Assembly: GCF_963675585.1 (NCBI RefSeq)
Contig: NZ_OY776414.1
Location: forward strand, 1,033,001 to 1,097,000
Origin: an uncultured Draconibacterium sp.
GTDB taxonomy: Bacteria; Bacteroidota; Bacteroidia; Bacteroidales; Prolixibacteraceae
Direction of reading: 5' to 3'
DNA: 64,000 nucleotides
Position 1 is the stretch's first letter. Every line of letters starts with the position of its first letter. The translations under genes and the position numbers were made by a program. The notes below the pieces were generated by a model. The model had not been told where the DNA came from and searched no databases. It was given only the letters and a program-made list of their open reading frames with translations. Shown here in pieces: positions 774-5,377 of this stretch.

Positions 774-802
774 TTTGTTATTCAATAAAACCATTACTTT
801 TG
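774..802 (+). promoter_or_regulatory. Bacteroidota sigma-A-type promoter for corA leader
   Basis: TTTG (774-777), a 17-nt spacer and TACTTTTG (795-802) match the Bacteroidota -33/-7 consensus TTTG...TAnnTTTG. The predicted transcript starts near 808, leaving a leader of about 125 nt before corA. Confidence 0.65.
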
Positions 803-835
803 CCACCGATTATAAAAATTAAAACAAATTTTGAA

Positions 836-883
836 ATGGACGAAGGCCCGTATCATACGAAGAAATTATTAACTTTCCTTTAA
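836..883 (+). CDS. Putative 15-residue leader peptide upstream of corA (MgtL-like)
   Basis: The ORF encodes MDEGPYHTKKLLTFL followed by TAA at 881-883. It lies wholly inside the predicted corA leader. Asp-Glu and then Pro come directly after the initiator. In enterobacterial MgtL, an acidic/proline-rich N terminus makes the translating ribosome fall apart at low Mg2+ (intrinsic ribosome destabilisation), which switches on the downstream Mg2+ transporter gene. The stop codon is embedded in the 5' arm of the hairpin at 877-912, so a ribosome that completes the peptide would mask that arm. An in-frame reading back to about 698 exists, but it begins upstream of the predicted transcription start. 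No strong Shine-Dalgarno is visible, which is normal for this phylum. Function is inferred from position, composition and RNA layout. Confidence 0.55.
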   Translation: MDEGPYHTKKLLTFL

Positions 884-930
884 GGGGGCACTTTGTTTTG
901 TCTCCTCAAAGGGTTATTTGAAAGGAGACA
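877..930 (+). promoter_or_regulatory. Two mutually exclusive hairpins controlling the corA ribosome binding site
   Basis: Structure A pairs 877-890 with 899-912: 13 pairs including two G-U, one A-C mismatch and an 8-nt loop. Structure B pairs TGTCTCCT (899-906) with AGGAGACA (923-930): 8 perfect Watson-Crick pairs covering the corA Shine-Dalgarno just before the ATG at 933. A and B share 899-906, so they exclude each other. Neither is followed by a U tract, so control would be translational. The leader-peptide stop codon (881-883) lies in the A-specific arm. A ribosome terminating there would favour B and silence corA. Early ribosome drop-off would favour A and open the site. Confidence 0.6.
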
Positions 931-932
931 GC

Positions 933-1865
933 ATGATCAAAATTTTCAAAAGTTTGGCTGGTCAAATCAGCTTGTCGAATCCTGAAAAAGGATGTTGGAT
1001 AAATGTACTGGAACCAACAACGACAGAAATTAACCATTTAACAAACGATTTAAACGTACCTGAAGATATTATTCGCGATATTTTAGACGTCGACGAACGT
1101 CCGCGCGTGGAGTATGACGATGACTGGACTTTGATTATTTTCAGGATTCCGGTAGCCACCGAGAATAACGGAGTGCCTTACCAAACGGTTCCTCTGGGAA
1201 TATTTGTGAGCTCCGATTTTACACTAACGCTTTGTTCAACAAAAAACGAAGTTTTAAACTTTGAATCGCCCACTTTGTACCGCGAGAAAAAACAGCAGGT
1301 TTCTGATATTCTTAATTTTCTGTTTCGTTTGTCATTGCGTTCGGCACAGGTTTTCCTGATCTATCTGAAACAAATAAATCAGCAAACAGCTGCAATTGAA
1401 CAGGATTTGGAAAAATCGATCAGGAACAAAGAATTGAATAAGCTGCTAAAAATGGAAAAATGCCTGGTTTATTTTATCACTTCGTTGAAAGCCAATGAAT
1501 TGGTGCTTGCGAAATTGGGCAACGCCAAAAAAAATACCATTAGCGAAATTAACGAGGATTTGCTGGAAGATGCTATTATTGAAAACAAACAGGCACTCGA
1601 AATGTCTCAAATTTATTCCGACATACAAAGTGGAATGATGGATGCATTTGCATCGGTAATATCAAACAACCTAAATGTTGTTATGAAACAACTGGCATCT
1701 ATTTCAATTATTTTAATGATACCAACCTTAATTGCGAGTATGTACGGAATGAACGTTCCCAATTCGGCTGAAACATCACCGTGGGCTTTCCCATCAATTT
1801 TAGGAGCGTCTGTTTTTATGTCGGGTTTGGGCATATTTATTTTCAGAAAAAGGAACTGGTTTTAA
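933..1865 (+). CDS. corA: CorA-family magnesium/divalent cation transporter
   Basis: Inner-membrane pentameric channel for Mg2+ (also Co2+/Ni2+ in some members). The 310-residue protein has the family layout: a soluble N-terminal alpha/beta domain, a long helical region (about 150-250) and two C-terminal membrane segments. The first segment ends in the hallmark YGMN motif (nt 1741-1752); the second is followed by the short basic tail FRKRNWF. An in-frame TTG at 918 would add five residues. I prefer ATG 933 because AAAGGAGA lies immediately upstream with normal spacing. The gene stands alone and is preceded by its own promoter and a structured leader (see 774-930), which suggests control by Mg2+. 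No terminator was recognised after it. Confidence 0.93.
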   Translation: MIKIFKSLAGQISLSNPEKGCWINVLEPTTTEINHLTNDLNVPEDIIRDILDVDERPRVEYDDDWTLIIFRIPVATENNGVPYQTVPLGIFVSSDFTLTLCSTKNEVLNFESPTLYREKKQQVSDILNFLFRLSLRSAQVFLIYLKQINQQTAAIEQDLEKSIRNKELNKLLKMEKCLVYFITSLKANELVLAKLGNAKKNTISEINEDLLEDAIIENKQALEMSQIYSDIQSGMMDAFASVISNNLNVVMKQLASISIILMIPTLIASMYGMNVPNSAETSPWAFPSILGASVFMSGLGIFIFRKRNWF

Positions 1866-3132: not shown

Positions 3133-4179
3133 TTACACAACTGAGATTAAATTTTCTTCGCTTTTTACCAATTCACCAAACGGAACTGCTTCAATGGAGA
3201 ATCCTTTCAAACATTCCTGAACTTCGTTTACAGAATCAGGTTCAACCGCCAAAAGTAGTCCGCCACTGGTTTGCGGATCGCAAAGAATATTTTTATAAGA
3301 CTCATCTTTCAGAAAGATATTATTTCCATAGCTTTCCCAGTTACGAATAGTTCCTCCGGGAATACAATTCTGTTCGAGGTACTGAGTAAGCATGGGCAAT
3401 TGTGGGATTTTGCTGTAATCAATGTGTGCCGATAAATTGCTTCCTTCACACATTTCGGTTAAGTGTCCCAGCAGTCCGAAACCTGTAACATCGGTCATTG
3501 CTTTTACTCCGATGATTTTAGCCAGGTCGTATCCCGGAGCATTTAGTTGGCACATTAATTCAGGAGCAATGTTTTCGTGTTCGGGCAACAATACACCTTT
3601 TTTTTGTGCTGTTGTTAAAATCCCAACTCCCAGAGGTTTTGTAAGTAAAAGCTGGCAGCCTTCCGTAGCCGTGTCGTTTTGTTTAATATTCTTAAGATCT
3701 ACCTGTCCGGTAACTGCCAAACCAAAAATAGGCTCAGGGCTGTCGATACTATGACCACCAGCCAGACTGATTCCAACTTCTTTGCAAATTTGCCGTCCGC
3801 CTTCAACTACTTCGCGTGCAATTTCGGGCGATAATTTATTAACCGGCCATCCCAAAATGGCAATGGCCAAAATGGGTTTTCCACCCATGGCAAAAACATC
3901 GCTGATGGCGTTTGTAGCAGCAATTTTTCCAAATGTAAACGGATCGTCAACAATGGGCATAAAAAAATCGGTAGTACTGATTATGGCAGTTCCGTTACCC
4001 ATGTCGAGCACGGCTGCATCATCCCGGCTGTCGTTGCCTACCAACAGATTTGGGAAAACTGGCATGTCAATATTCGATTCTAAAATAGTGCTTAATACTT
4101 TTGGCGAAATTTTACATCCGCAACCTGCTCCGTGGCTATACTGAGTGAGTTTTATGTTTTGTTTTAACGATTGTTGCAT
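3133..4179 (-). CDS. selD: Selenide, water dikinase (selenophosphate synthetase)
   Basis: SelD makes monoselenophosphate, the reactive selenium donor, from selenide and ATP. The 348-residue length is typical. The N-terminal catalytic loop reads GAGCGCK, placing Cys20 and Lys23 where E. coli has its essential Cys17 and Lys20; the residue is Cys, not selenocysteine. Further family signatures are [16 protein letters not shown] and [11 protein letters not shown]. No selenoprotein gene is visible here, and the neighbour mnmH indicates use of selenophosphate for tRNA 2-selenouridine. The start lies 44 nt inside the end of mnmH, so translation is probably coupled. Confidence 0.96.
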
Positions 4180-5188
4180 GGTGTTTTATTATCTTTTTTG
4201 CGTTTTGTTTGAAGTCTATTTTTTGTATTTTAAGCGGAAAAATATCGTCGTGTTTTCTGTTTTGCAATCCGCGTAAATAATATTTGTCGTAGTATATTAA
4301 GGTAATCATGGCTGTTTCGTAAAATTCATTGGCTGCCAGGTGTGCCAATGCTTTTTGTGTGTCCAATCCTCCCAGGCGTTTCGATATCCGGTTTACGGAA
4401 TCTGCCAGCATTTCTTTGTCGGCCTGCGCATAATCGTTTACCAGGTGTCTGGCCCGTTCTTCTCGCGGTATATCTAAAAATAGTACAAGCTGGTTACGCA
4501 TGTTTTCAAAAAAGTTCATTGGAATATTTACAGAACCAATTCGATGGCTTTCGTCTTCCACCCAAATGGTTTTTGTGTAATCCAGATCTTTCCACTTCCA
4601 AAATAAATCATTTTCGAATTGTTCAATGGTAGGTTGATTCCCGCAATTCCCAAACGCCGAACCTTTGTGATTTGCCAGTCCTTCCAAATCGATAATTTGT
4701 TCGCCCATTTGTTCCAATTCCTTTAAAATATAGGTTTTTGCACTCCCGGTGTAACCACCTAAAATACAAATGTTGGCTTCATTTTTAAACGATTCAAGGG
4801 CGTGGTTTCGAAAGGCTTTGTATCCACCTTTAATTACATAAACCGTTTCAAATCCGTTTTCAGACAAATGACCGGCAAACGATTTCGACCGCATTCCACC
4901 TCTCCAGCAATGCACGGCAATTTTTCCGGCCGGCGCTACAGATTCCGATTCAGTAATAAACTGGTCGAGTTTGGGATTTACAAGAGTGTATCCCAGTTCA
5001 ATGGCTTTTTCTTTTGATTGTTGTTTGTAAACGGTTCCAACTTTTGCCCGTTCGTCGTTTGTAAAAAGCGGAATGTTGGTGGCAAATGGTATGTGGCCTT
5101 TCAGGAATTCGCCCGGCGAACGCACATCGATTAAGGGAACCTCATTCGAAAGGACTAAATATTCTGAAAATGTAATTTCCTTTAACAT
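4136..5188 (-). CDS. mnmH: tRNA 2-selenouridine synthase
   Basis: MnmH (SelU/YbbB) converts 2-thiouridine at the wobble position of certain tRNAs to 2-selenouridine, via geranylation and then selenation with selenophosphate. The 350-residue protein has an N-terminal rhodanese domain (about 1-125) with the catalytic Cys94 in HCWRGGMRS. It is followed by a P-loop domain with GGYTGSAKT (about 144-152). The Walker A motif has Ala where Gly is usual (GSAKT rather than GSGKT). I chose ATG 5188 over the upstream TTG 5206. It is first in an operon with selD, which overlaps its last 44 nt. A TACCTTTG box ends only a few bases before the ATG, so the transcript may be nearly leaderless. Confidence 0.95.
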
Positions 5189-5377
5189 GGCTGCAAAGGT
5201 ATTCAATACATCACGAAATTGTAAACATTATCTGTAATAAAAACTGAAATTGCAGGAATCTTAAACCGTAGTAGATCTGCTTATATTGTTAAAAAAAGGT
5301 TGGTAAGTAGAACCGGAGGTTTCGAAACTAACTCATTTGTTTGTCGTAAATTATGTTTAAATACTAAATGAATCATT

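Follow-up and report, generated by a model that had tools for sequence, protein, structure and literature searches.

We have identified, upstream of the corA gene in a 64,000-base stretch of DNA from an uncultured Draconibacterium sp. (the whole stretch is called the window hereafter), a leader that is likely to act in cis, as a translational attenuator, on the Mg2+ transporter genes that it precedes in Bacteroidota. It carries a short upstream open reading frame (uORF) with an acidic start. The uORF stops at arm 1 of a hairpin, and arm 2 of this hairpin can pair either with arm 1 (helix P2) or with the corA initiation region (helix P3). These two helices are mutually exclusive, since both use arm 2. 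The recurrence of this design is far from what chance would give. From its place before two unrelated kinds of magnesium transporter in related bacteria, and by analogy with the enterobacterial mgtL leader, it is probably a sensor of magnesium shortage. The initial annotation, which had described an MgtL-like switch on corA translation, is partly supported: it was largely upheld, corrected in several details, and widened.

Anatomy of the leader upstream of corA

The elements of the leader in the window are as follows.

774-802, + strand: promoter of the presumed Bacteroidota type, with TTTG at 774-777 and TAnnTTTG at 795-802
836-883, + strand: uORF MDEGPYHTKKLLTFL, 15 codons, whose acidic start recurs in 89 of 92 distinct corA leaders
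838-849, + strand: segment 1, uORF codons 1-5, partner of the hairpin loop (probable helix P1)
876-890, + strand: arm 1, partner of arm 2 (helix P2, initiation region free)
886-898, + strand: loop segment, sharing its first bases with arm 1, partner of segment 1 (probable helix P1)
899-913, + strand: arm 2, partner of arm 1 (P2) or, through 899-906, of the corA initiation region (P3)
921-930, + strand: purine-rich Shine-Dalgarno (SD)-like tract in the corA initiation region, of which 923-930 pairs with 899-906 (P3)
933-1865, + strand: corA, CorA-family Mg2+ channel of 310 aa (Pfam PF01544, E 3.6e-51)

The sequence and its computed fold confirmed the promoter, the uORF, the hairpin arms and the alternative pairing where the initial annotation had placed them, except that the arms, given as 877-890 and 899-912, each extend one base further at the outer end. 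The hairpin has an 8-base loop and one A-C mismatch, and the uORF stop codon TAA (881-883) lies within its first arm. In the competing helix, TGTCTCCT (899-906) and AGGAGACA (923-930) are perfect reverse complements, and corA at 933 is preceded by the tract AAAGGAGA. The minimum free energy of 808-960 gave a z of -2.33 (4 of 200 shuffles equally good), and in the corresponding structure bases 839-849, at the uORF start, paired with 886-897, in the hairpin loop. The leader had been read as having two helices; P2 and P3 stand, and this third pairing, P1, had been missed.

The assignment of 774-802 follows the TTTG/TAnnTTTG consensus, which we take to be the Bacteroidota promoter type, and transcription would then start near 808-812. 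A sigma-70 scan, whose coverage does not extend to the Bacteroidota type, found no promoter at 774-802. Among the 88 leaders with enough upstream sequence, TAnnTTTG occurred upstream of the uORF in 83, with 2.3 expected from shuffling, and in 82 of those 83 it lay 19-33 nt before the uORF ATG.

The window corA product scored 123.9 bits against NCBIfam TIGR00383, under the equivalog cut-off of 200.75. In its own genome the leader DNA had one full-length match, the other 13 matches being 14-27 bases long, and no such leader was found upstream of the second, distant CorA gene of the same genome. At gathering score, Rfam gave no match in the 64,000-base window or in six leader loci; the best sub-threshold match over 760-960 reached 27.3 bits, with 46.5 needed.

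Conservation of the leader before corA relatives

Close relatives of corA were collected from the genus (match in 34 of 37 genomes) and from named genomes (80 of 171 kept), among which the nearest corA was that of Draconibacterium aestuarii with 85% identity. The 107 loci with a full gene start gave 92 distinct corA leaders. The acidic uORF, the conservation of which had been proposed as a check, was present in 89 of these 92, and the three leaders without it (L015, L052, L054) were excluded from the helix tests and from all later counts. Holders of the leader include Draconibacterium, Mariniphaga, Prolixibacter, Ancylomarina and Marinifilum, as well as Anaerophaga, Mangrovibacterium, Sunxiuqinia and Maribellus. 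Yeosuana, with a uORF starting at TTG, and Mesonia, both presumably Flavobacteriaceae, also hold it.

For the later analyses, a joint set of 107 leaders was assembled from 89 corA leaders, 14 mgtE leaders, three corA leaders of the MDD type described below and one leader before an MgtE_N protein. The corA leaders had been chosen by an ATG/TTG-GGA start, so that aspartate or glutamate at residue 2 is built in.

A corA gene of this type was also seen in records titled Desulfobacteraceae, Ignavibacteriales or Chlorobiota, with the leader in L068, L086, L036, L044 and L101 and without it in L052 and L054. These records are possibly binning errors or cases of transfer.

The leader before mgtE and distant corA genes

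When 295 genomes of the order were searched with a leader DNA pattern, 15 had a match, and 10 of these matches were judged by eye to be leaders, five before corA and five elsewhere. The remaining matches (L127, L128, L129, L131, L134) showed no such arms and no CorA match and were set aside by eye, as were six of the eight matches from another pattern search. The reversed control pattern matched 2 of 295 and 3 of 392 genomes. A covariance model (R1) gave matches in 2 of 392 genomes with 10 candidates scored per genome, and the pattern searches were preferred.

Four of the five leaders outside corA stood before MgtE, and three full-length MgtE proteins exceeded the NCBIfam cut-off. The fifth, at L130:1501-2876, has the uORF MDEGPENIDYYLSI and stands before a PRC-barrel/MgtE_N/CBS protein in which the MgtE membrane domain was not matched. 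With an MgtE query, relatives at E 1e-90 or better were found in 21 of 295 genomes; the leader preceded mgtE in 12 of the 21 and was absent in nine, the 12 including the query, which had been picked for having the leader, and three more known from the earlier pattern search. Two further mgtE leaders came from family searches. The uORFs of mgtE leaders start with MDEGP, MDDVP, MEEDP or MKDDP, and proline at residue 5 in all 14 mgtE leaders of the joint set is built in by the pattern that picked them. In L193 and L197 the mgtE uORF reads MKDDPYSC, with a lysine ahead of the acidic pair and proline kept at residue 5. MgtE and CorA are unrelated families of Mg2+ transporters. It is chiefly because the leader occurs before both that we propose Mg2+ as the signal.

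Before distant corA genes, 50 loci (L140-L167, L218-L239) gave 29 distinct leaders with a uORF starting MDD, picked by the two aspartate codons and with identical leaders dropped. Their uORFs start with, among others, MDDYY, MDDYH or MDDSNP, and a hairpin lies close to the stop codon; as hairpins were searched for from 6 nt before the stop onwards, the stop-to-arm distance is limited on one side by the search itself. Arm 2 paired with the own initiation region at -12.2 kcal/mol, compared with -7.0 for permuted partners (z -8.8) and -5.8 for shuffled ones (z -16.3; n=29). In the MDD leaders of genus g10 there is no SD, and arm 2 pairs around the start codon. Of the acidic/proline start that the initial annotation had given the peptide, the acidic part holds for these genes; proline is not universal, being absent in most of the 29 leaders, with many distant corA leaders starting MDDYY or MDDYH.

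Among 20 further loci, a clear MDD uORF was found in L169, L171 and L172 (L171 being the same place as L239). Six of 28 distant corA loci (L219, L221, L222, L223, L224, L228) were without such a leader, and it was absent before many of the distant corA genes examined. For L218 (MDGVP) and L220 (MDEVP, 130 nt upstream), inspection by eye was the sole basis for counting them as leaders. In L224 an MDDGP ORF lies 161 nt upstream.

Peptide and reading frame of the uORF

In the 89 corA leaders, proline occupied residue 5 in 87, although it played no part in their selection, and residue 3 was aspartate or glutamate in 85. Residue 2 was acidic in 105 of the 107 leaders of the joint set, which is largely built into the selection. 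All four proline codons are used among the leaders. Tyrosine at residue 6 (76 of 107) and histidine at residue 7 (70 of 107) were also frequent. At codon 2 (839-841 in the window), GAC was used in 95 leaders and GAT in one (n=107), and in the MDD leaders the counts were 27 and two (n=29). This preference for GAC exceeds what the need for an acidic residue alone would require.

Relative to the first base of arm 1, the uORF stop codon fell between -8 and +9 nt; this is the observed range of the 107 leaders, all of which are therefore inside it by definition. When the frame was shifted after codon 6, the first stop fell within this range in only 25 and 12 of the 107 leaders for the two shifts, and earlier than the range in 60 and 86. 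The hairpin search for the joint set began at leader base 25, independent of the stop. Residues from 6 to the end carried a net positive charge in 89 of 107 leaders, compared with 51 and 14 in the shifted frames. Both this placement of the stop and the positive charge of the tail are less frequent in shifted frames, and these results favour a translated uORF on which termination occurs at a fixed place. The tail itself tolerates frame changes: the tails of L059 (MDEGPYHSKLKY) and L060 (MDEGPYHSKLKLLTIL) differ by an indel, and termination moves to the following stop codon, again near arm 1.

In 98 of the 107 leaders, half or more of arm 1 would be covered by a terminating ribosome, and a ribosome at codon 5 would touch arm 1 in only one leader of the 107. 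The polarity proposed earlier, in which a ribosome at the stop codon blocks arm 1, fits the position of the stop in the 107 leaders.

Covariation of the rival helices

Both P2 and P3 covary. In 48 representatives, the own partners paired better than permuted ones for P2 (z -14) and for P3 (z -8.8), with 0 of 1000 permutations equally good in either case, and the mean duplex energies of the two helices were nearly equal (-14.7 and -14.4). In the alignment of these 48 leaders, changes on both sides were found in 9 of 10 counted pairs of each helix, with 34 cells for P2 against 8.1 in shuffles and 28 cells for P3 against 9.3. Pairing amounted to 87.5% for P2 and 80.1% for P3, and fell to at most 54.0% and 53.7% when the partners were slid. 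Because of the common descent of the corA leaders, the permutations and shuffles overstate significance.

Symmetric exchanges of arms between independent pairs of leaders favoured the own partner of P2 in all three bands of similarity (23:3, 39:3, 46:3). For P3, the own partner won in the two more divergent bands (28:11 and 47:2); among the closest leaders the own partner was better in three exchanges and the swapped one in nine, which was not significant and gave no coevolution in that band. One of the five alignment measures for P3, further pair types, was equalled by 97 of 500 shuffles. An asymmetric swap between nearest neighbours was borderline for P3 (55 vs 47, p 0.066); it was judged to be biased by hub sequences and set aside, and the symmetric exchange was used instead. 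The covariation that the initial annotation had called for thus passed the permutation, shuffle and slide controls for both pairings, with these exceptions for P3.

In L043, L107 and L093 the strong purine tract is lost, and arm 2 still matches the altered tract. Accordingly, it is the pairing rather than the SD strength that seems to be kept.

A probable third helix

The pairing of uORF codons 2-5 with the hairpin loop (P1, 838-849 with 886-898) is probable, with moderate support. The own loops paired better than shuffled ones (z -13.1 for 89 corA leaders, z -5.7 for 14 mgtE leaders) and better than permuted ones (z -3.0; 6 of 1000 equally good, 48 representatives). The symmetric exchanges gave 9:5, 26:10 (p 0.011) and 28:15 (p 0.066), significant in one of three bands, and the asymmetric nearest-neighbour swap went against P1, with 39 better and 68 worse. 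Single covarying cases were seen in L201 (GACGTACC with GGTACGT) and L094 (GTCCC with GGGGAC). In MDD corA leaders the P1 duplex was weak in L165 (-5.3) and L171 (-3.2) and reached -8.7 in L172 with a 44-base partner. P1 may be the source of part of the nucleotide conservation at the uORF start.

Initiation region and computed switching

The initial annotation had named the masked element as the SD of corA. On the one hand, the pairing over the start stands. On the other hand, the label does not, as in Bacteroidia ribosomes the proteins bS21, bS18 and bS6 hold the 16S tail, so that SD sequences go unrecognised (PMC9976891). Because SD pairing is not normally used in Bacteroidia, the element is better named the initiation region. 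Within the window, 33 non-overlapping ATG ORFs of at least 150 aa were compared, and corA alone had a strong SD. P3 may be the reason for the purine tract at 921-930, or the tract may serve ribosomes that lack bS21. Ribosomes without bS21 are also a possible second layer of control on corA.

We computed the accessibility of the SD-like tract by constrained equilibrium folding with a ribosome footprint at codon 4 or at the stop codon. The tract was more accessible with the footprint at codon 4 in 92 of 107 leaders, with a gain above 0.2 in only 33. Mean accessibility in corA leaders was 0.10 in the free RNA, 0.21 at codon 4 and 0.07 at the stop, so that the tract is mostly paired throughout. 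The leader of the window gave 0.46 at codon 4 and 0.26 both at the stop and without a ribosome. The three MDD leaders tested showed no gain (0.218 and 0.215). Equilibrium folding thus supports the direction of the predicted switch, not a full switch. Since a ribosome at codon 4 still leaves the tract mostly paired, the open state would have to depend on folding during transcription, in the course of which P2 can form first.

Proposed mechanism and alternative explanations

From the arrangement of the parts, the output would be a masking of the translation start. In the proposed mechanism, ribosomes would translate a uORF that has an acidic start, usually followed by proline (a second form lacks it), and that ends at arm 1. 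When the uORF is finished, the terminating ribosome would sit on arm 1. In this case arm 2 would pair with the initiation region (P3) and the transporter would be off, and segment 1 could pair with the loop behind the ribosome (P1). When ribosomes pause on the acidic codons or drop off from them, arm 1 would be free. A ribosome on codons 2-5 would block P1, and arms 1 and 2 would pair once both are transcribed (P2), leaving the initiation region open. We infer that the uORF is translated, that the switch has this polarity, that low Mg2+ destabilises the ribosomes and that Mg2+ is the signal; the choice of Mg2+ rests on the gene context and on the analogy with MgtL.

The same uORF switch could respond to a signal other than Mg2+, such as general translation stress, for instance with EF-P-like or EttA-like factors limiting, or a different metal, for example cobalt. 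According to PMC11282234, pausing at acidic residues early in a peptide, as in MgtL, is modulated by EttA, and the frequent Y6 and H7 would be unneeded by a simple destabiliser. However, the leader precedes two unrelated families that are both annotated for Mg2+, and its early acidic/proline rule matches the known Mg2+-sensing MgtL, so that we consider another signal unlikely. Alternatively, Mg2+ might act on the RNA directly, with the uORF being incidental or secondary, if P1 and P2, which can be drawn as an H-type pseudoknot, were stabilised by Mg2+ binding. A nucleotide constraint is indeed indicated by the GAC codon 2 in 95 of 107 leaders and by the shuffle tests of P1. This explanation is very unlikely considering that the reading frame matters for the placement of the stop, that P1 is weak in two of three tested MDD leaders in which the acidic start is kept, and that P1 together with P2 would open the start at high Mg2+, which is the wrong sense for an importer.

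The destabilisation of ribosomes on the acidic codons might also be replaced by a sequence-specific, erm-like arrest of the nascent chain at MDEGPYH as the event that sets the switch. With a ribosome held on codons 2-5, P1 would be blocked, and residues 6-7 are often tyrosine and histidine, which would suit such an arrest. The variety of the starts (MKDDP, MDDVP, MESDP, MDDYY) fits a rule of composition better, and we regard an arrest as highly improbable. Finally, the leader might be conserved by descent without any regulatory function, in keeping with the shared ancestry of the corA leaders and the significance that this overstates. The exchange tests between divergent leaders, the frame-dependent placement of the stop and the recurrence before an unrelated gene family make this scarcely credible.

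Comparison with known leaders

In erm attenuators, the position of a ribosome on a uORF picks between two exclusive helices, one of which hides the main start. The present leader resembles them in that the uORF ends at a hairpin arm and the other arm can pair with the downstream initiation region. It differs in that a drug stalls the ribosomes of erm leaders, whereas here an acidic start and a Mg2+ transporter gene are found. The M-box (ykoK) riboswitch is a ligand-binding leader RNA of Mg2+ transporter genes that senses Mg2+ and has no uORF; the present leader shares its place before Mg2+ transporter genes and, unlike it, has a uORF.

In the enterobacterial mgtL leader, early acidic and proline codons destabilise the ribosome and thereby act as the Mg2+ sensor. 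Compared with mgtL, the present leader places its second helix over the translation start itself, precedes CorA and MgtE, and belongs to another phylum. For MgtL, PMC11282234 describes an EPDP motif with ribosome drop-off at low Mg2+. The mgtL leader of mgtA in Escherichia coli and Salmonella is also alike in having a short acidic/proline uORF before a Mg2+ importer and two exclusive RNA structures, and, as predicted here, efficient translation of its uORF switches the importer off (PMC11552253 and PMC11282234). It is unlike the present leader in its Rho-dependent transcription termination and in its ATP-dependent importer (PMC11282234).

The earlier statement that no such leader was known before corA was too strong, as PMC11552253 describes corL before corA in Salmonella and E. 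coli. As in the present leader, there are two exclusive structures in corL, and, as predicted here, translation of the uORF is inverse to corA expression. In contrast, corL is Rho-dependent, starts with UUG in E. coli and has fewer acidic or proline residues than mgtL (PMC11552253). Leader-peptide candidates in Bacteroidota in general are described in PMC7366714 and PMC9723704, the main texts of which do not mention corA in their available parts. Our search of an article library found no report of the present leader.

Taken together with these systems, the leader may be described as MgtL-like in its sensor and erm-like in its output, a likeness of build. We lean towards the view that it is a widespread Mg2+ sensor of Bacteroidota, independent of mgtL in origin, in which the acidic uORF codons would gauge ribosome stability and a four-segment RNA would set the translation of two unrelated transporter families. 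If this is true, the fragility of ribosomes on acidic codons could be a general way to read the Mg2+ of the cell, and the leader would be a family of regulatory RNAs in a phylum that normally does not use SD pairing. More than 100 natural variants are available for finding which residues matter.

Elsewhere in the window, two adjoining ORFs (3133-5206, - strand) presumably encode, as judged from the translations, relatives of selenophosphate synthase and tRNA 2-selenouridine synthase.
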